From a virus, in IMG/VR virus record IMGVR_UViG_3300037852_000176, positions 1 through 39,155 of that record: a stretch of DNA of 39,155 bases. The stretch is one strand, 5' to 3'. The notes below the pieces were generated by a model, which saw only the letters and a list, made by a program, of their open reading frames with translations, did no database searches and was not told where the DNA came from. Position numbers and translations under genes: made by a program. Below, piece after piece: positions 2,649 through 10,809 of this stretch. Position 1 is the first letter of the stretch. Each line of letters opens with the position of its first letter.

Positions 2649-3613
2649 TGGCCGCCCAAGTGCAAGTAACTGAGCAACCGCTCCCCCTGAACACCAGCTT
2701 CTCACTCAAGCTGCCTACGCTTCAGATCGCGTGGGACAGTACTTCGCTCTCCGCCCTCAAACGCTGTCCGCGCCTCTACGAATACTCTATCGTCCGCGGT
2801 TACACTGGCCGCCGCGAAAACATACACTTCGCCTTCGGCATTTGGTTCCACGCCGCACTAGAATTCTACGACCGGGCCAAGGCCAAAGGCGTTCCGCACA
2901 ACGCGGCCCTTGACGAAACAGTCCGGCGCGCGCTCATTGCGACTTGGAATTTCAAACTCAATCGTCCCTGGACAAGTGAGGAACCAACCAAGACCCGCGA
3001 AACCCTCATCCGCGCAATCGTTTGGTATCTCGACAAGTTCGGCGAAAACGACACCATGCAAACGATTATCTTCGCCGACGGTGAGCCCGCGGTGGAGAAG
3101 AGTTTCCGGTTTGAGGTCGGACTTCGCAGCCATCTAACCGACGAAGAATATCTCCTCTGCGGCCACATCGACCGCCTCACACATTTCAACGACCGCATCT
3201 GGATTCAAGATCGCAAGACAACGAAGTTCGCCCTCAACGACAACTATTTCGACATGTATTCACCCGATAATCAGGTGAGTTTGTACATCTTGGCGGGGCA
3301 AGTAGTCTATCCTGAACCCATCCGCGGCTTCGTCATCGACGCGGTGCAGACATTAGTGGAGGGGAACAGGTTCCAGCGCGGCGAAGTGACCCGAACTCCA
3401 AGCCAATTGGACGAGTGGGTGAGGGATTTGCAATACTGGCTGCGTCAAGCGGAAGTATTTGCGCATGACAACTATTGGCCCCAAAACGATAAAGCCTGTT
3501 ACGGCTGTGAGTTCCGCAAGGTCTGCGGGGCGAGCCCCGAAGTCCGTGAACCTTTGCTGCGCGGCCTGTTCGAGCAACGGGTCTGGGATCCTTTGCAGAC
3601 CAGAGAGGTATAA
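2648..3613 (+). CDS. PD-(D/E)XK exonuclease, RecB/Cas4 type with Fe-S-like Cys cluster
   Basis: This 321-residue nuclease of the RecB/AddB/Cas4 branch of the PD-(D/E)XK superfamily would process DNA ends for recombination or replication. Visible motifs are WDSTSLSALKRCPRLYEY at residues 29-46, His68 in GIWFHAALE, Asp175 in GHIDRL, and the catalytic Asp188 and Lys190 in IQDRKT. Cys40 plus Cys284, Cys287 and Cys293 (CxxCx5C) reproduce the four-cysteine arrangement that holds a 4Fe-4S cluster in AddB and Cas4. The ATG overlaps the preceding TGA. A RecA-like ATPase gene starts four bases after its stop, so the two probably act together in recombination. No Cas genes or CRISPR repeats are nearby, so a Cas4 role in immunity is not supported. 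Confidence 0.88.
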   Translation: MAAQVQVTEQPLPLNTSFSLKLPTLQIAWDSTSLSALKRCPRLYEYSIVRGYTGRRENIHFAFGIWFHAALEFYDRAKAKGVPHNAALDETVRRALIATWNFKLNRPWTSEEPTKTRETLIRAIVWYLDKFGENDTMQTIIFADGEPAVEKSFRFEVGLRSHLTDEEYLLCGHIDRLTHFNDRIWIQDRKTTKFALNDNYFDMYSPDNQVSLYILAGQVVYPEPIRGFVIDAVQTLVEGNRFQRGEVTRTPSQLDEWVRDLQYWLRQAEVFAHDNYWPQNDKACYGCEFRKVCGASPEVREPLLRGLFEQRVWDPLQTREV

Positions 3614-3616
3614 CTC

Positions 3617-4618
3617 GTGACATCAATCCTCGACGAAACCGCGCCCGCCCCGGCGAAGATGCTAGTCATCGGCGATAACGGCAGCGGCAAGACCGGCGCA
3701 CTAGCATCGCTCGTCTGCATGGGATATAAGTTGCGCATCATCGACACGGACAAAGGGGTTGCCACTCTCCGCTCTCTACTTGTCGATCGTCGCTATCCCT
3801 ACGCTGCATACTGCGAAGCTCACGGCATCAACCTCCGCGAGGCGGTGAGTTTCAAGAGCATCGACGTGGATTTCGAACTCAAGACACTGGGCAAAGAGCG
3901 TATTCTCGCGCCGAAGAATGCAAAAGCCTGGGACGAAATCATCAGCGCGCTCGAAGACTGGACCGACACCAACGGCCCGCTTCGCAACAAGAAGGACGAG
4001 CCGACATACGGCCACTTTACCACTTGGGACAAGGACACAGTCGTCGTAACCGACTCCTTCACCACTACCGCGAAGTTCGTCTACTACCACATGCAAGCGA
4101 TCAACGGAAGACTGGGCGCCCGCGAAGAGGGCTACGACTATCAGCGCGACACGGGCTCCGCCCAGAAGCAACTCGAACGCTATCTCGAAATGATGAGCGC
4201 GGGTTATGTCCAGTGCAACGTGATTATTATCTCGCACGTGACCCGGATCGACGATACCGGCGGTGTAGTCCAATCGCCCGAGCAACGCGCCCGCGACGGG
4301 CGGCAGGTGAACGCGAAGGGCTATCCCAGTTCCATCGGCCGCGCCCTCTCCCGCAACATGGGTAAGTTCTTCAACGACATCTACGTTGTGGAAGCGACGG
4401 GCAGCGGCACTTCCGTCAAGCGCCAAATCAATACCGTGCCAGTGGACAATGTGAATGCCAAGACCAGCGCATATTTGGAGCGCTCCTATGATATCACAAC
4501 TGGCATGGCCGAAATCTTCGCCGCACTCAGTCGCCAACCCGCCCCCACGGAACTCATCGAACACTGCAAGAAATTCGGCGCCCGAAGTGCGCCCGTAGTT
4601 GTGAGGGCGGCGTCATGA
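3617..4618 (+). CDS. RecA-like P-loop ATPase (AAA_24/Sak4-like recombination protein)
   Basis: This 333-residue ATPase starts at GTG 3617. Walker A is GDNGSGKT (residues 19-26). Next come a DTDKG segment near 43-47, a Walker B-like VVVTDS (142-147), and a hydrophobic strand ending in SH (NVIIISHVTR) that would be the sensor position. This pattern fits phage RecA-fold ATPases such as the Sak4 single-strand annealing proteins and the AAA_24 family. The adjoining nuclease and the unknown protein at 4876 make a plausible recombination set of nuclease, annealing ATPase and partner. Sak4 versus another RecA-like ATPase cannot be decided by eye. The stop overlaps the next ATG. Confidence 0.82.
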   Translation: MTSILDETAPAPAKMLVIGDNGSGKTGALASLVCMGYKLRIIDTDKGVATLRSLLVDRRYPYAAYCEAHGINLREAVSFKSIDVDFELKTLGKERILAPKNAKAWDEIISALEDWTDTNGPLRNKKDEPTYGHFTTWDKDTVVVTDSFTTTAKFVYYHMQAINGRLGAREEGYDYQRDTGSAQKQLERYLEMMSAGYVQCNVIIISHVTRIDDTGGVVQSPEQRARDGRQVNAKGYPSSIGRALSRNMGKFFNDIYVVEATGSGTSVKRQINTVPVDNVNAKTSAYLERSYDITTGMAEIFAALSRQPAPTELIEHCKKFGARSAPVVVRAAS

Positions 4619-4776
4619 CTAAACATATCGTTGCGTCTGCCGGATTGGCAATAGGCTTCTACATAACTGATATATTATGGGATCGCTATATAAAATTCAC
4701 TCCACAATCGCGGCTCGGTTCCGCTATAGCTTTCGGACTTGGTGCATTCGCTGCATACGAGATGGTACGTTTGTAA
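4615..4776 (+). CDS. Two-transmembrane micro-protein (53 aa)
   Basis: ATG 4615 overlaps the stop of the ATPase gene (ATGA) and the frame ends at TAA 4774-4776. The protein has two hydrophobic segments, residues about 5-21 (VASAGLAIGFYITDIL) and 35-47 (GSAIAFGLGAFAA), separated by a basic loop. That makes it a likely small inner-membrane protein. It sits in the recombination operon rather than with lysis genes, so an early host-membrane role such as exclusion is as plausible as anything. It is AT-richer than its neighbours. Confidence 0.6.
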   Translation: MTKHIVASAGLAIGFYITDILWDRYIKFTPQSRLGSAIAFGLGAFAAYEMVRL

Positions 4777-4829
4777 TAATTGTAGACTGCGCATCGACCC
4801 GCTCACATCACGGTGGCGGGCCAGCCGCA

Positions 4830-4850
4830 GTGCAGGAGTCTTTCCTGCAC
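4830..4850. other. Perfect 8-bp hairpin in intergenic gap
   Basis: GTGCAGGA and TCCTGCAC form a perfect 8-bp stem around a 5-base loop (GTCTT) in the 99-base gap between the micro-protein gene and the gene at 4876. There is no T-run after it, so it is not a classic intrinsic terminator. It may stabilise the mRNA, attenuate transcription or bind a protein. This is the only sizeable gap inside the otherwise overlapping early operon up to this point. Confidence 0.55.
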
Positions 4851-4875
4851 CAACCCAACTGAAAGCGACTCACTC

Positions 4876-5325
4876 ATGGCAGAACTACCAGTAGACGTTC
4901 GCGAACTGCTCAAGAAGCCCTCCGACGATATGGAGCGGCCCCGGCCACTGGCCGACGGTCACTATATCGGCGAAGTCCTGGGCCAGCCAGAGTTCGATCT
5001 CACGCGCGGGGAGAAGCAGACGCACCTCGTCCGCTTCAACTACAAAATCCTCGAAGCCTGCGACGACGTGGCGGCAGACGCGAACGCCGGGATCGACCTG
5101 ACTCGGCGCGAAGTCCGCCAAGAGTTCTTCATCACCCCCGCCGCACTTTACCGACTCGGCGACGCGGTGGACGGGATTCTGGGCAAAGCGCCAGGAGTTG
5201 GCGTGGACGAGCGACTCCCCGACGTACAAGGGGCGCGCGTGCAACTGCGACTCCGCGAGCGTGTCGACCGGAGGACAGGAGAGAAGACCGGGTATAATGA
5301 AGTGGTGACCGTTGTAGCGGCGTAG
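4876..5325 (+). CDS. Hypothetical recombination-module protein, possible ssDNA-binding role (149 aa)
   Basis: ATG 4876 is chosen because the longer frame upstream would translate through the hairpin and the start of the intergenic gap. The 149 residues look mostly beta with short helices. A Pro-rich start leads to DGHYIGEVLGQPEF, a strand containing HLVRFNYKIL, an EFFITPAALYRLGD segment and a C-terminal strand ending NEVVTVVAA. Proteins of this size next to a phage nuclease and RecA-like ATPase are often single-strand binding or annealing partners, but no OB-fold signature can be proven by eye. Position is the main argument. Confidence 0.72.
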   Translation: MAELPVDVRELLKKPSDDMERPRPLADGHYIGEVLGQPEFDLTRGEKQTHLVRFNYKILEACDDVAADANAGIDLTRREVRQEFFITPAALYRLGDAVDGILGKAPGVGVDERLPDVQGARVQLRLRERVDRRTGEKTGYNEVVTVVAA

Positions 5326-5384
5326 ACGCCGTGTTGACCTGGGCATGTCACTAAACTGCCCACCGTATTTCGGGGGAAATATAG

Positions 5385-6812
5385 ATGCCCGCACTAGACC
5401 CAACTACAATTGTCGTCCCGCCCAACCGTCAGCGAAGCAAGCTCGACACCAAGGATCTGGAGGCGAGCATCGCGACACTGGGCCAAATCCAAGACATTGT
5501 TGTCCGCCGCGACGGCGAGACTGTATTGCTAGTCGTCGGCGGCCGGCGCTTGCAATCCTGTATCAACTTGGGAATCCCCGTTCAAGCCCGCTTCTGGGAC
5601 GAACTATCGCCGCTCGAATCGCGCGAGATAGAACTGGAAGAGAATATTAAACGTAGCGATTTGCCTTGGCGCGATCAAATCCGCGCCTATGGCGACCTGC
5701 ACGCCATGCGCAAAGCCGCCGATCCAACCTGGACAACCGCAAAGACCGCGGCCCGGCTCAACTACGAGCGCAGCTTCGTCGCCCGGTTGCTAATCATCTA
5801 CCGCAACCTCGACTCGCCCCTGCTCGCCGCCGCCACCGGCATCGAACACGCCCGGAGTATCCTAGAGCGGGCCGCCGAGCGCAAGACTGCCGATATAGTT
5901 GACAAAATCGCCGCGGCCGGCGAGAGGATTTTTGGAGGTAAGTCCGATGCGACCACCGCAACAGCCAGCGCAAGCGCGAGCGCCCAAGCATCAGCCACCG
6001 TTCCCGCCCCCGGAGATTCCGAAACTACCACTCCGCTGGGCGGCGCTCTTGATAGTGGGACTGAGCTGCCTAAGCTGGACAGCACTGTTCCTTCTGTGGT
6101 CGCTCCTATAATCTGCGGCGACTTCCTGAAATGGGCCCCCGCATACACAGGCGCGAAATTCAATCTCATCCACTGTGATTTCCCGTACGGGATTCAAGTC
6201 TTCGCCGGCACAGGCATGAACGCGGGCGCGGGATTTGGGATCGACTACGACGACTCCGACGCCGAAATCTATTGGCGGCTAGTCGATTGCTTGTGCACTA
6301 ACCTCGACCGGATTGCATCCTATTCCGCGCACTTGCTATTCTGGTTCTCTATGAACTACTACGAGCGAACGCGGAAGAAACTGGAAAGTGCCGGACTCAT
6401 GGTCCAAGCCCATCCCCTCATCTGGCTCAAGTCCGACGGCAAGGGCATCATCCCCGGTCGCAGCGGCGAATACCCGCGCCGGGTTTACGAGACTGCATTC
6501 CTCTGCTCCCGCGGCAATCGCCCATTGGGCAAGCAACTGGAAAATGCCTACGCCTCGCCGAGCGAGAGCAACCCACTCCAGCCCACCCAGAAGTCCGAAT
6601 CCATGCTAAAGCATTTCCTGGCGATGCTGATAGACGGAACGACAGACGTGCTAGACCCAACTTGTGGATCGGGCAGTGCCCTCCGCGCAGCAGAACACCT
6701 CGGCGCCCGCAGCATTCTCGGCCTCGAACTCAACCCCGAATTCGCGAAGGCCGCCGCCACCGCAACAGCCCAAGCCCGGATCAAGAGGAAGGCATCAGGA
6801 GGGATTCAGTGA
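5385..6812 (+). CDS. ParB-like nuclease domain fused to class beta DNA methyltransferase
   Basis: This 475-residue fusion starts at ATG 5385 with GGGGG upstream. Residues 1-100 form a ParB/Srx N-terminal domain (TLGQIQDIVVRR, GGRRL at 52-56, EENIKR at 86-91) followed by a helical ParB-like segment to about 180. A low-complexity Ala/Thr/Ser linker (about 186-240) leads to an S-adenosylmethionine-dependent DNA methyltransferase. Motif IV is DFPY (265-268, a variant of DPPY). Motif X-like NPLQPTQKSE follows at 396-405, then motif I DPTCGSGS at 424-431. Motif IV before motif I marks class beta, which contains N6-adenine and N4-cytosine enzymes such as CcrM. The likely role is modification of phage DNA, with the ParB part guiding binding. 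The linker overlaps a separate reading frame (5947-6111). Confidence 0.88.
   Translation: MPALDPTTIVVPPNRQRSKLDTKDLEASIATLGQIQDIVVRRDGETVLLVVGGRRLQSCINLGIPVQARFWDELSPLESREIELEENIKRSDLPWRDQIRAYGDLHAMRKAADPTWTTAKTAARLNYERSFVARLLIIYRNLDSPLLAAATGIEHARSILERAAERKTADIVDKIAAAGERIFGGKSDATTATASASASAQASATVPAPGDSETTTPLGGALDSGTELPKLDSTVPSVVAPIICGDFLKWAPAYTGAKFNLIHCDFPYGIQVFAGTGMNAGAGFGIDYDDSDAEIYWRLVDCLCTNLDRIASYSAHLLFWFSMNYYERTRKKLESAGLMVQAHPLIWLKSDGKGIIPGRSGEYPRRVYETAFLCSRGNRPLGKQLENAYASPSESNPLQPTQKSESMLKHFLAMLIDGTTDVLDPTCGSGSALRAAEHLGARSILGLELNPEFAKAAATATAQARIKRKASGGIQ
5947..6111 (+). CDS. Nested out-of-frame membrane micro-protein inside ParB-methyltransferase linker (54 aa)
   Basis: A 54-codon frame lies wholly within the linker region of the ParB-methyltransferase gene, in a different frame. 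A strong Shine-Dalgarno, GGAGGT (5934-5939), sits seven bases before ATG 5947, better than that of most genes in this operon. The product has a Pro/Gln/Arg-rich N-terminal half and a C-terminal hydrophobic helix of about 23 residues (starts WAALLIVGLS, ends LFLLWSLL) just before TAA. This is the layout of a tail-anchored single-span protein. In the main frame the same DNA encodes low-complexity sequence, as expected if the second frame is the constrained one. Expression is inferred. Confidence 0.55.
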   Translation: MRPPQQPAQARAPKHQPPFPPPEIPKLPLRWAALLIVGLSCLSWTALFLLWSLL

Positions 6813-6979
6813 GGGAGATAGATCAAGCATTCGCCTGTTGGAAGAAGCAAAATGAGACGCGGAGGAAATTTAGTTTGCGTTGCCTACTCGGCTGGCATAC
6901 GTGGCGTATATCACCGTGGGCCGAATCCGGGAACAAGACTATCTTCTATTGCAAACGGTGCCGAGTTCTTGCATCATGA
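6809..6979 (+). CDS. Small DUF1660-like zinc-ribbon protein (56 aa)
   Basis: GTG 6809 overlaps the stop of the methyltransferase gene and has AGGAGGG about six bases upstream. A charged N-terminal helix is followed by LRCLLGWHTWRI and, 20 or so residues later, YCKRCRV. This C...H.W...CxxC layout is that of small phage DUF1660-type proteins and probably binds zinc. It resembles the plan of the product at 1281-1418. Function unknown. Its stop overlaps the ATG of the glycosylase-exonuclease gene. Confidence 0.68.
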   Translation: MREIDQAFACWKKQNETRRKFSLRCLLGWHTWRISPWAESGNKTIFYCKRCRVLAS

Positions 6980-8052
6980 CTAACCGGCTCCGCGGCATCT
7001 TCGTCGGCGAGGCTTGGGGCGTCCATGAGGCCCGCGCCGGTCACGCACTCGTCGGCCCCAGCGGCATAGAACTAGCTGCCATGATCGAAGAGTCGGGTTT
7101 GGGGCCAGGAGTGGGCGTGAAGTGGCCCAACTACGAGAACATGATCGCCTACTGGGCGCGCCTCCGCGCGGACTTCGGCATCGGCGTCACCAACGTCTTC
7201 AACGAGCACCCAATGGGGAACGAGATCAATCAGTTCTTCGGCAAGGAAGGCGACCGCGCGCAAGTCCCATTGAAGGCAGGCAAATACATCCGCCCGGAGG
7301 CAATGCATCATGTCGAACGACTGTGGAAAGAACTGGCTGTCGATCGACCCAATCTCATTATTGCCATCGGCAACTCCGCGGCATGGGCCACTCTTGGGAA
7401 AACTGGAATCGGTGCTCTACGTGGAGCCGTTCAATCGTCGAAGAGGTTATCTGGCATTAAGGTGTTACCCACCTATCACCCAGCAGCCATTCTGCGGCAA
7501 TGGAGTTTACGCACAATTGGTCTTGCCGATCTTATTAAAGCCAGACGGGAGTTGGAATTTCCTGAAGTCCGCCGCCCCAAGCGATGGCTGACCGTTATCT
7601 CGCCCGATAGCAAGGGCCTGGTCGAAGGCTCGCAGTGGCTAAACCGGCCCGCGCCCGATGGATATTCCATCGACATCGAGACTAATTTCGGCCAAATCTC
7701 CATGCTCAGCTTCGCCCGATCGCCCGCCGATGCACTCGTCATCCAGTTCCACAACGACGACGGAAGCTCGTTCTGGCCGAACGTATTTCTGGAGACTGAA
7801 GCGTGGAAGCTCACGCAACGTGGGCTCAGTAAACCTGTGCCCAAGACCTTCCAAAACGGTCTATACGACATCAGTTACTTCATGCGCATGGGCTTCCAGG
7901 TGAAGATGTGCCGCGACGACACTATGCTCCGCCACCACGCGGCACTGCCCGAACTTCCCAAGAGCCTAGGCTTTATGGGCAGTTTGTATTCGGATGAATG
8001 CGCTTGGAAGTCCATGCGGACAGCGGAAGACACATTGAAGAGGGATGAGTGA
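6976..8052 (+). CDS. Uracil-DNA glycosylase fused to DnaQ-like 3'-5' exonuclease (incomplete exonuclease motif set)
   Basis: This 358-residue protein starts at ATG 6976, overlapping the previous TGA. Residues 1-195 form a uracil-DNA-glycosylase superfamily domain, with VGEAWG at 10-15 and TYHPAAILR at 166-174, the family 4/5-type second active-site loop. The paired cysteines of Fe-S family 4 enzymes are absent. Residues about 225-350 are a DnaQ-like exonuclease with Exo I DIE (Asp233, Glu235) and Exo II NGLYD (Asn294, Asp298). The ExoIII YxxxD motif, which should follow, is missing here and appears at the N-terminus of the separate polymerase at 8330. The protein would excise uracil and, with the polymerase, proofread. 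The stop overlaps the next ATG (TGATG). Confidence 0.85.
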   Translation: MTNRLRGIFVGEAWGVHEARAGHALVGPSGIELAAMIEESGLGPGVGVKWPNYENMIAYWARLRADFGIGVTNVFNEHPMGNEINQFFGKEGDRAQVPLKAGKYIRPEAMHHVERLWKELAVDRPNLIIAIGNSAAWATLGKTGIGALRGAVQSSKRLSGIKVLPTYHPAAILRQWSLRTIGLADLIKARRELEFPEVRRPKRWLTVISPDSKGLVEGSQWLNRPAPDGYSIDIETNFGQISMLSFARSPADALVIQFHNDDGSSFWPNVFLETEAWKLTQRGLSKPVPKTFQNGLYDISYFMRMGFQVKMCRDDTMLRHHAALPELPKSLGFMGSLYSDECAWKSMRTAEDTLKRDE

Positions 8053-8330
8053 TGACTCAATCTACATTCAGCGGGAAGGTATCTCACGTCAAAGCAGCCA
8101 AACTAACGCGGAAGCACTCTTGCCACTGGCCCGGCTGTATAAATCAAGTCCCACCTGCAATGTGGGGATGCCGACGGCACTGGTACATGTTACCTAAATA
8201 TCTACGCGATAAAATTTGGAGTGCATACCGTCCGGGTCAGGAAGATGATATGCATCCCGATTCAAGCTATCTCGATGCTGCTAACGAAGTTCAAGAATGG
8301 ATTACGAAGTATAAGGAAGTACACGGCTGA
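8052..8330 (+). CDS. Zinc-binding small phage protein between exonuclease and polymerase (92 aa)
   Basis: ATG 8052 overlaps the TGA of the exonuclease gene, and its own stop overlaps the polymerase ATG (TGATG on both sides). A GTG one codon earlier is an alternative. The conserved-looking core is CHWPGC...PPAMWGCRRHW, with Cys and His spaced as a zinc site, then a helical region with IWSAYRPGQE and a C-terminal helix NEVQEWITKY. I associate this pattern with a widespread family of uncharacterised phage proteins. It interrupts what is otherwise a continuous exonuclease-polymerase gene. The gene is AT-richer than those flanking it. It may be a cargo insertion or a polymerase partner. Confidence 0.75.
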   Translation: MTQSTFSGKVSHVKAAKLTRKHSCHWPGCINQVPPAMWGCRRHWYMLPKYLRDKIWSAYRPGQEDDMHPDSSYLDAANEVQEWITKYKEVHG

Positions 8331-9817
8331 TGCCCGTAATCGTCGCCCACGAAGTCGATCCCGACACCGGGCTTATGCCCGTGTACAACGGACTCGACTC
8401 CTGCCTCACTCAAGAAATCGAGAACAAGACACGCGGACTGGGCGGCCCGAACGGCGACCTGATTTACAAATTCGAACTCGGTATGCAGGCGGTGGCACTG
8501 GAGATGATGTTACGCGGTTTCCGGGTCGATCCCTTCGCTCGCCAGACGGCCATATCCAACGCCCGTTTCAAACTCGAAGCCACCCACGACGTACTCCGCC
8601 AGCTCGTCGCTGCGGTCTGGGACAAACCGTGGAAGCTAAACAACAAGAAGCTCCCTACCTTTCCGGGCAGCGACACTCAGCTCCGTGACTTCTTCTATAC
8701 CCACATGGGCATTCGTCCGATCCGCGTATTCTCGCACGGCGAAATTAAGTTGCCAATGGACCGGAAGATATTGGAGCGGCTGGAGGCATACTTCTACGCC
8801 CGCCCGTTTGTCAACTCAATTCTATTGGCGCGTGACCTAGCCAAGACCCTTCAAGTCCTCGAAACCGAAATCGACGATGACTGGCGCTGGCGCTGTAGTT
8901 ACAATATTGGGGGTACAACAACCGGCCGCTGGAGCAGCAGCAAATCCGGCATCGGCACCGGATCAAACTTTCAGAACGTGACTGAAGAACTTCGGCGCAT
9001 CTTCATCGCGGATGAAGGCTGGAAAATTTGCGGCATCGACCTCGAACAAGCGGAGGCCCGCGAAGTCGGCTGGTTCTGCGGCACAATCCTTGGCGACTGG
9101 AGCTATCTCGATGCCTGTGAAAGCGGAGACCTCCACACCTTCGTCACGCGAATGGTATATCCCGATTGGGCATGGACTGGAGATTTGCGGAAGGACAGAA
9201 AACTCGCCGAGCGCCGGTTCCATAGACATTTTACATATCGCGACGCAAATAAACGGGTTGGACACGCGAGTAACTATTATGGTAAACCTCCGACCATCAG
9301 TGCCGCCACCAAAATCCCCATGAATCTCGTTCGCGAATTTCAAGAGCGCTACTTCGCCGCGTTCCCCTGCATAGTCCGAATGCACCATTGGGTCGCCCGC
9401 GAACTGCAGACTAAGCAATTTCTTGTCAATGCGTTCGGCAGGCGTAGGGACTTCTTCGACAGACCCAAGGACGAAGAGACGCTGCGCAGTGGGATCGCGT
9501 ATCTGTTTCAGAGCGCGACAGGGGATCGACTGAACTTGGGCTTGTGGCGCACGTGGAAGCATCTCGGAACTCGCATCCAAGTCCTCGCCCAACTCCATGA
9601 CGCCCACTACTTTCAATACCGCGAGGACGACAACGAGGCAGAAGTGATTACTGAAGCTCTCGGATATATGGACGTGCCACTCCATCATGGCAACCGTACC
9701 TTCACAATTCCGGCTTCTCCAGTTGTAGGACACAATTGGGCGCACAGATTTAGACTAGATGGTGATGGCAATCTGGTAGATTGGAACCCACGTGGTTTAG
9801 CGGAGATAAAACTATGA
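8330..9817 (+). CDS. Family A DNA polymerase (polymerase domain plus ExoIII motif)
   Basis: This 495-residue replicative polymerase of the Pol I family starts at ATG 8330. The TTTGRWSS motif lies at 197-204. Motif A is DLEQAEAREVGW with catalytic Asp237. Motif B is the O-helix region KRVGHASNYYG (308-318). Motif C is QLHDAHYF with catalytic Asp424. The Glu that usually follows in motif C (HDE) is Ala here. The segment corresponding to Phe762 of E. coli Pol I holds His or Ala instead of an aromatic, depending on alignment. Residues 19-23 (YNGLD, then SCLTQEI) match the ExoIII YxxxD motif of proofreading domains, whose other motifs lie in the gene at 6976. Replication of phage DNA is the expected role. 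Confidence 0.92.
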   Translation: MPVIVAHEVDPDTGLMPVYNGLDSCLTQEIENKTRGLGGPNGDLIYKFELGMQAVALEMMLRGFRVDPFARQTAISNARFKLEATHDVLRQLVAAVWDKPWKLNNKKLPTFPGSDTQLRDFFYTHMGIRPIRVFSHGEIKLPMDRKILERLEAYFYARPFVNSILLARDLAKTLQVLETEIDDDWRWRCSYNIGGTTTGRWSSSKSGIGTGSNFQNVTEELRRIFIADEGWKICGIDLEQAEAREVGWFCGTILGDWSYLDACESGDLHTFVTRMVYPDWAWTGDLRKDRKLAERRFHRHFTYRDANKRVGHASNYYGKPPTISAATKIPMNLVREFQERYFAAFPCIVRMHHWVARELQTKQFLVNAFGRRRDFFDRPKDEETLRSGIAYLFQSATGDRLNLGLWRTWKHLGTRIQVLAQLHDAHYFQYREDDNEAEVITEALGYMDVPLHHGNRTFTIPASPVVGHNWAHRFRLDGDGNLVDWNPRGLAEIKL

Positions 9818-10032: not shown

Positions 10033-10501
10033 GCAACCATTTGCCGGCCCATTGAAGTTGATGCTAGATGCATTACTTAAATATCAAAATGTTGGCGATG
10101 ACGTAATTGACCTAATGCTCAACGGATCAATGAAGGAGACTCCCACTCCATTTCTCGGCGGCCACTCGGCGCGCCACGCTATGCAAACTCTCGGCACCGA
10201 ATGGGGCCGCGACTGCATCGCCCGCAATTTTTGGATCGAAGTCTGGAAGCATTCTACCTCAACTGCGCGCGCAAGTATTGTTGTCGAAGATGTCCGCTTC
10301 GCCAACGAGGCCCGCGCGATTAAGGAACTGGACGGCGTAATCGTCCGCATCGACCGCGAGATTCTCCGCGCGGCAGATTTGGACTTGCACATCTCCGAAC
10401 GCGAGCAACATAGCATCGCGGCCGATTTCACAGTTATCAATTATGAAGGCACCCGAAGCAACATGCTCATTCAGTTGAAAGAAGCAGGAGTCATCAAATG
10501 A
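9941..10501 (+). CDS. Deoxynucleoside monophosphate kinase-like P-loop enzyme
   Basis: This 186-residue kinase would phosphorylate dNMPs for phage DNA synthesis. The P-loop is GPKGCGKST near residues 9-17. It is followed by QPFAGPLKLML, a substrate-region segment typical of phage dNMP kinases, a GTEWGRDCI stretch, and VVEDVRFANEARAIKEL, where the acidic DVRF element is characteristic. ATG 9941 is preferred over ATG 9926 because GGGAG at 9928-9932 is well placed for it. It lies downstream of the polymerase and upstream of a nucleotide-metabolism-like gene whose ATG overlaps its stop. Confidence 0.82.
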   Translation: MPRQILGLIGPKGCGKSTLAHALWEIGGWSRQPFAGPLKLMLDALLKYQNVGDDVIDLMLNGSMKETPTPFLGGHSARHAMQTLGTEWGRDCIARNFWIEVWKHSTSTARASIVVEDVRFANEARAIKELDGVIVRIDREILRAADLDLHISEREQHSIAADFTVINYEGTRSNMLIQLKEAGVIK

Positions 10502-10809
10502 GGCGGGTGATCCTCGAATCGCCCTACGCGGGCGACGTCGCCACGAACCGCGCCTATTTGCAACGGTGCATCCGCGACTGCCTTTCCCGCGGCGAAGCTC
10601 CCTTTGCATCGCACCAAATGTACACAGATGCACTCGACGATTCCGACCCCGAGCAGCGCAAACTGGGAATGCTCGCCGGACTCCGCTGGCTCTGGTGCGC
10701 CGACGCAGTTGTAGTCTATAGCGACCGCGGTATATCCCCTGGAATGCAATGGGCGATAGATCAAGCAACTTCGCATATGCCGATTGAATATCGCAAACTA
10801 GAAGCCTAA
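10498..10809 (+). CDS. DUF4406/DUF7768-type protein (nucleoside deoxyribosyltransferase-like fold)
   Basis: ATG 10498 overlaps the kinase stop (ATGA). The 103 residues start with VILESPYAGD and continue with a helix bearing NRAYLQRCIRDCLSRGEAPFASH, then LGMLAGLRWLWCADAVVVYSD and GISPGMQWAID. This matches the small Rossmann-like proteins annotated as DUF4406 or DUF7768, distant relatives of nucleoside 2-deoxyribosyltransferases. Location after a dNMP kinase suggests a part in nucleotide metabolism or base modification, but catalytic activity in this family is not established. Confidence 0.8.
   Translation: MRRVILESPYAGDVATNRAYLQRCIRDCLSRGEAPFASHQMYTDALDDSDPEQRKLGMLAGLRWLWCADAVVVYSDRGISPGMQWAIDQATSHMPIEYRKLEA

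Follow-up and report, generated by a model that had tools for sequence, protein, structure and literature searches.

We found that the window, an entire IMG/VR virus record of 39,155 bases, encodes a Pol I-type proofreading exonuclease whose motifs Exo I, Exo II and Exo III are all complete but spread over two genes, and that the same break is a lineage trait of a large group of bacterial viruses. The products of these genes very likely constitute a two-subunit PolA, in which both proteins dock to form one composite DEDDy proofreading site and the 92-residue gene lying between them is cargo. Assembly in trans is strongly supported by sequence comparison and structure prediction; the two proteins presumably dock physically and proofread.

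The first gene (6976-8052, on the + strand like all features described here) encodes a 358 aa UDG-exonuclease protein, in which a UDG domain (PF03167, 7.9e-14) precedes the C-terminal PolA motifs Exo I (D233-I-E235, 7672-7680) and Exo II (N294-G-L-Y-D298, 7855-7869), both assigned by alignment with relatives, and a conserved tail, KRDE. It is followed by the 92-residue gene (8052-8330, phrog_18063, 1.4e-29; 93 aa with the GTG at 8049 as start) and by the polymerase gene (8330-9817). The 495 aa product of the latter carries Exo III at its N-terminus (Y19-N-G-L-D23, 8384-8398, matching RYAAED of E. coli Pol I in the alignment), then a family A polymerase domain (PF00476, DNA_pol_A, 1.9e-19) with aligned and conserved polymerase motifs A (D237), B (R304/K308) and C (H423-D424). 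The stop of the UDG-exonuclease gene overlaps the start of the 92-residue gene in a TGATG (8050-8054), and a second TGATG joins the stop of the 92-residue gene to the start of the polymerase gene (8328-8332). Consecutive segments of phrog_17 (DNA polymerase) were matched by the UDG-exonuclease protein (538-785) and the polymerase protein (809-1237), and both this match and the alignment identify the two enzyme ORFs as consecutive parts of an intact homologue. Exonuclease and polymerase are not on one chain, the three genes of the window lying in three frames with stops between them. Upstream lies a ParB-like and methyltransferase gene (5385-6812), in which a ParB-N-like domain is fused to an N6/N4 DNA methyltransferase; downstream of the polymerase gene are a deoxynucleotide monophosphate kinase and a DUF3987 primase/helicase.

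To place the break, we aligned both proteins with intact relatives from Microcystis phage Mel-JY34, environmental phage ctMlz233 and vir526, in which a single ORF at the syntenic place has the same domains, motifs and order as the window and no break. Exo II lies before the break and Exo III after it: the UDG-exonuclease protein stops 13 residues past a conserved W-K, and the polymerase protein starts 18 residues ahead of the Y-x3-D. A profile of both pieces compared with E. coli Pol I set DIET, NGLYD and YNGLD on FDTET, NLKYD and RYAAED, which are D355/E357, N420/D424 and Y497/D501 in E. coli Pol I numbering; the break lies in an exonuclease-domain loop at about residues 478-485 of that enzyme. 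An earlier note on this DNA had assigned Exo I and Exo II to the glycosylase protein and Exo III to the polymerase protein, and the residues it named are invariant columns in intact and split relatives alike. Its coordinates, residue numbers and both TGATG overlaps proved correct when checked against the sequence, the alignment agrees with the break position it proposed to check in intact fusions, and no Y-x3-D was found after Exo II in the glycosylase protein, where by the note's own account a complete Exo III would have refuted its reading.

Viral-contig scans with single proteins of the window yielded no relatives; these were found with profiles that included Caulobacter phage Kuura, an isolated phage (PMC9959647) that has the identical break with two other genes inside it. 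The first half of the Kuura enzyme is labelled a hypothetical protein, so that automatic annotation masks the split. Split loci were collected from two separate viral-contig scans, one for the polymerase and one for the UDG-exonuclease, together with Kuura and the window, giving at least 145 loci with both ends, at least 117 of them distinct, and none fused among the matches listed. In a scan of the sister group that started from intact relatives, all 79 listed contigs were fused at the window's break site. A scan from the split members nearest the fused group returned 45 split loci with all motifs present, some on contigs already counted, as well as two distant fused contigs at 28% identity. 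The larger scans comprised the best 80 loci and sampled the boundary between split and fused lineages in part. One branch parts split from fused sequences in FastTree trees of each half and of both combined, and an IQ-TREE analysis of a subset recovered one split/fused change with an SH-aLRT of 99, the tree alone giving no direction. As the break is found in 117 distinct viral sequences, it is not due to chance. Assembly error was considered as its cause and ruled out, the break being shared by an isolate and over 100 distinct contigs. A GTDB genome scan returned no relative, and therefore no host or prophage link was found.

The residues of the divided site are retained throughout the split lineage. 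Both Exo I carboxylates (D and E) are present in 115/115 split relatives covering the site. The Asn and Asp of Exo II occur in 117/117, and the Tyr and Asp of Exo III in the 116/116 that have the segment in frame, a count that may be biased since YNGLD served as a search word in one scan. The loci reached only via the UDG-exonuclease gene, without YNGLD as a search word, gave 54/54, and the one apparent exception (L170) reads YNAFD and then has a frame break. The split has thus persisted while each piece diverged to a median pairwise identity of about 47%, and no motif residue is confirmed as lost; comparable fixation is seen in only about 1/10 of the exonuclease and polymerase columns. Pairwise distances of the exonuclease correlate better with those of the polymerase (r=0.80) than with those of the UDG domain on its own protein (r=0.67).

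These data bear on the possibility that the two proteins act apart, as a free UDG-exonuclease and a polymerase without proofreading that keeps Exo III merely as the structural start of its fold. The halves can indeed lie far from each other, up to about 4.7 kb, as such independence would allow. However, retention of Exo III would not be expected of a polymerase without proofreading, and its Y and D are kept in all 116 split polymerases while the three carboxylates and the Asn of the partner are equally fixed. The fourth carboxylate is missing from the exonuclease core on its own, which has no substitute Y-x3-D, and the exonuclease and polymerase distances are the best-correlated pair. We therefore regard separate action as improbable.

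We modelled the composite with AlphaFold2 from a relative (L224) whose two genes share a reading frame interrupted by one TAG; reading this TAG as a residue joined the pieces artificially into one chain. The alignment comprised 135 rows, with the split pieces entered as separate rows alongside fused relatives. With fused homologues thus included, the joined chain was predicted with a pLDDT of 94.7 and a pTM of 0.91, which stops short of proving that free chains bind. The sole segment below a pLDDT of 50 was the junction (residues 353-367), and the Exo III helix was well ordered. Structures matched to the model by Foldseek include the Klenow fragment (TM 0.75-0.76, by target length) and phage G20c Pol I (TM 0.73).

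We then compared the content of the break across relatives. Among 114 of them the gap between the halves ranges from -4 to 2793 nt (median 475), and in 14/114 it is at most 5 nt with no gene inside; in one further relative the halves are about 4.7 kb apart. Gaps of at least 120 nt are 97% covered by same-strand ORFs, whose products include proteins of the DUF7220 and DUF1937/DUF7768 kinds. A cluster of HNH-type or related zinc-finger genes occupies the break in 13 relatives, several members having a Pfam HNH_3 match and some only the associated zinc-finger units. The break of the window holds no homing endonuclease gene, its occupant being the phrog_18063 gene. A DUF7768-like gene (VILESPYAG...) lies downstream of the polymerase in the window (10498-10809), and genes of the same kind are found within the break of 12 relatives.

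The product of the 92-residue gene has a conserved CHWPxC...CxxHW, a probable zinc site; folded alone it reached a pLDDT of 83.1, and the model had no significant match in the PDB. That this protein serves as a splint or third subunit joining the halves is suggested by the exact TGATG overlap at each end, and by a relative of it (L253, 3001-3222) located immediately ahead of a fused UDG-exo-polymerase gene (3188-5707), whose start it overlaps. Against this, the phrog_18063 gene is absent from the break of every other split locus examined, 14/114 relatives have no gene in the break at all, and among the nine virus records with its closest relatives seven had no detected polymerase of this kind, although these records may be fragments. 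A splint role is thus very improbable and, judging from this distribution, the 92-residue gene is exchangeable cargo. The earlier note had read the locus, if its pieces assemble, as a proofreading domain built in trans and joined to uracil excision, with the 92-residue gene and its couplings favouring co-assembly. The alignments bear out that the site is divided between two genes, that the break lies where the note had put it and that a uracil-glycosylase domain is attached, whereas the role given to the 92-residue gene does not hold for a split that is clade-wide without that gene and whose gap contains different genes or none. Tight coupling of the genes is common but is not required, one relative having its halves about 4.7 kb apart.

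Removal of the break at the RNA or protein level to give a single chain, by a group I/II intron, an intein, frameshifting or readthrough, is hardly credible. In its favour, phage polymerase genes often harbour introns and inteins, a probable motif-B intein was seen in the sister group, and the L224 genes share a frame with a lone TAG between them. Against it, Rfam gave no hit in the window or in 11 loci, and in 14/114 relatives the genes are at most 5 nt apart, too close for an intron to fit. The two proteins also have conserved ends at the break, a tail in the first and a start in the second, and the genes of the window are in three different frames with stops.

In the two-subunit reading, an ancestral single-chain UDG-exonuclease-polymerase would have been cut once, in the loop between Exo II and Exo III, and its descendants would have retained both pieces as separately translated genes. 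Of the four carboxylates that bind metal, three would come from the UDG-exonuclease protein, which would also bring the UDG-fold domain and the core of the exonuclease; the fourth would come from the polymerase protein, together with the Exo III Tyr and the final helix of the exonuclease. Docking of the two proteins would rebuild a single DEDDy site adjacent to the polymerase domain. We infer a fused ancestor because Pol I-type enzymes elsewhere are single-chain, which makes one fission event in a fused ancestral gene the simple reading. The HNH-type genes in the break, together with an HNH-like ORF in another break (L142), a recurrent break in the palm and the motif-B intein, fit the known targeting of phage polymerase genes by homing endonucleases, and suggest that the fission may have originated by insertion of a homing endonuclease.

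Uracil excision by the UDG-fold domain is uncertain, as it has none of the cysteines that typically bind the iron-sulphur cluster in family 4. The GE-x-W-G, T-N-V and H-P motifs are conserved and the domain matches PF03167, its solved structural relatives being family 4 UDG and UdgX. The four cysteines of the family 4 4Fe-4S cluster are missing from the UDG domain of the window (6976-7561), residues 1-200 of the UDG-exonuclease protein being free of cysteine. The related vir526 fusion retains a CxxC near its start.

Division of labor between an exonuclease polypeptide and a polymerase polypeptide has a parallel in bacterial Pol III, where the proofreading exonuclease (epsilon) is separate from the polymerase (alpha); unlike here, where two chains would share an active site, epsilon is a complete exonuclease. 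Phage enzymes in pieces are also already known. In Aeromonas phage Aeh1 nrdA is interrupted by mobE and the pieces are reported to form active NrdA, and in Aeromonas phages 25 and 44RR gp43 is split as 43A/43B, the phage 25 pieces co-purifying with polymerase activity (PMC2988022). In these cases, too, a core phage enzyme is broken in two around a gene or other sequence, and they indicate that such pieces can work together. They concern, however, a ribonucleotide reductase (RNR) and a family B polymerase from single phages or a few, whereas here the break divides a family A proofreading site, a UDG domain forms part of the first piece, the split is clade-wide and the cargo changes. A further case is that of OM43 phages MEP401 and MEP402, in which PolA is encoded in two ORFs around a small ORF, as in most related genomes (PMC10580990). 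That family A break lies inside the polymerase domain, the first ORF comprising the whole exonuclease and the N-terminal part of PF00476 (PMC10580990), whereas the window has its break within the active site of the exonuclease, past Exo II and before Exo III. In the open-access literature searched there was no report of a PolA with a divided proofreading active site or of clade-wide fixation of such a split.

A Pol I-type proofreading site is normally on one chain, and a whole phage clade appears to use two gene products instead. An insertion point that looks damaging has become a lasting slot for cargo genes. Phage Kuura, being isolated, offers a natural and possibly dissociable proofreading subunit, a lead for polymerases with switchable proofreading. 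We also considered, tentatively and as an unlikely extension, that the split is in active use: the UDG-exonuclease subunit might come on and off the polymerase, so that proofreading and uracil sensing would be recruited or withheld and the mutation rate adjusted, with the cut as a landing slot for new genes.

Other interruptions of the enzyme were observed during the scans. A recurrent break in the palm (NLQNIP / LPNVRKMF) was seen in the sister group (L003, L129, L130, L135, L157, L158, L159 and L162), with gaps of 0 to about 850 nt, and is of the same kind as that of OM43 phages MEP401/402. A third type falls at the UDG/exonuclease boundary (L142:1410-1650, L163 and L020:5627-5960); the gap in L142 encodes the HNH-like ORF, and L020, a member of the split clade, has the enzyme in three pieces. 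Finally, L137:2971-6246 contains a probable intein in polymerase motif B (HG / CVTAGHEVL ... SVTGN / SNYGG), also present in L138-L140 and L143.
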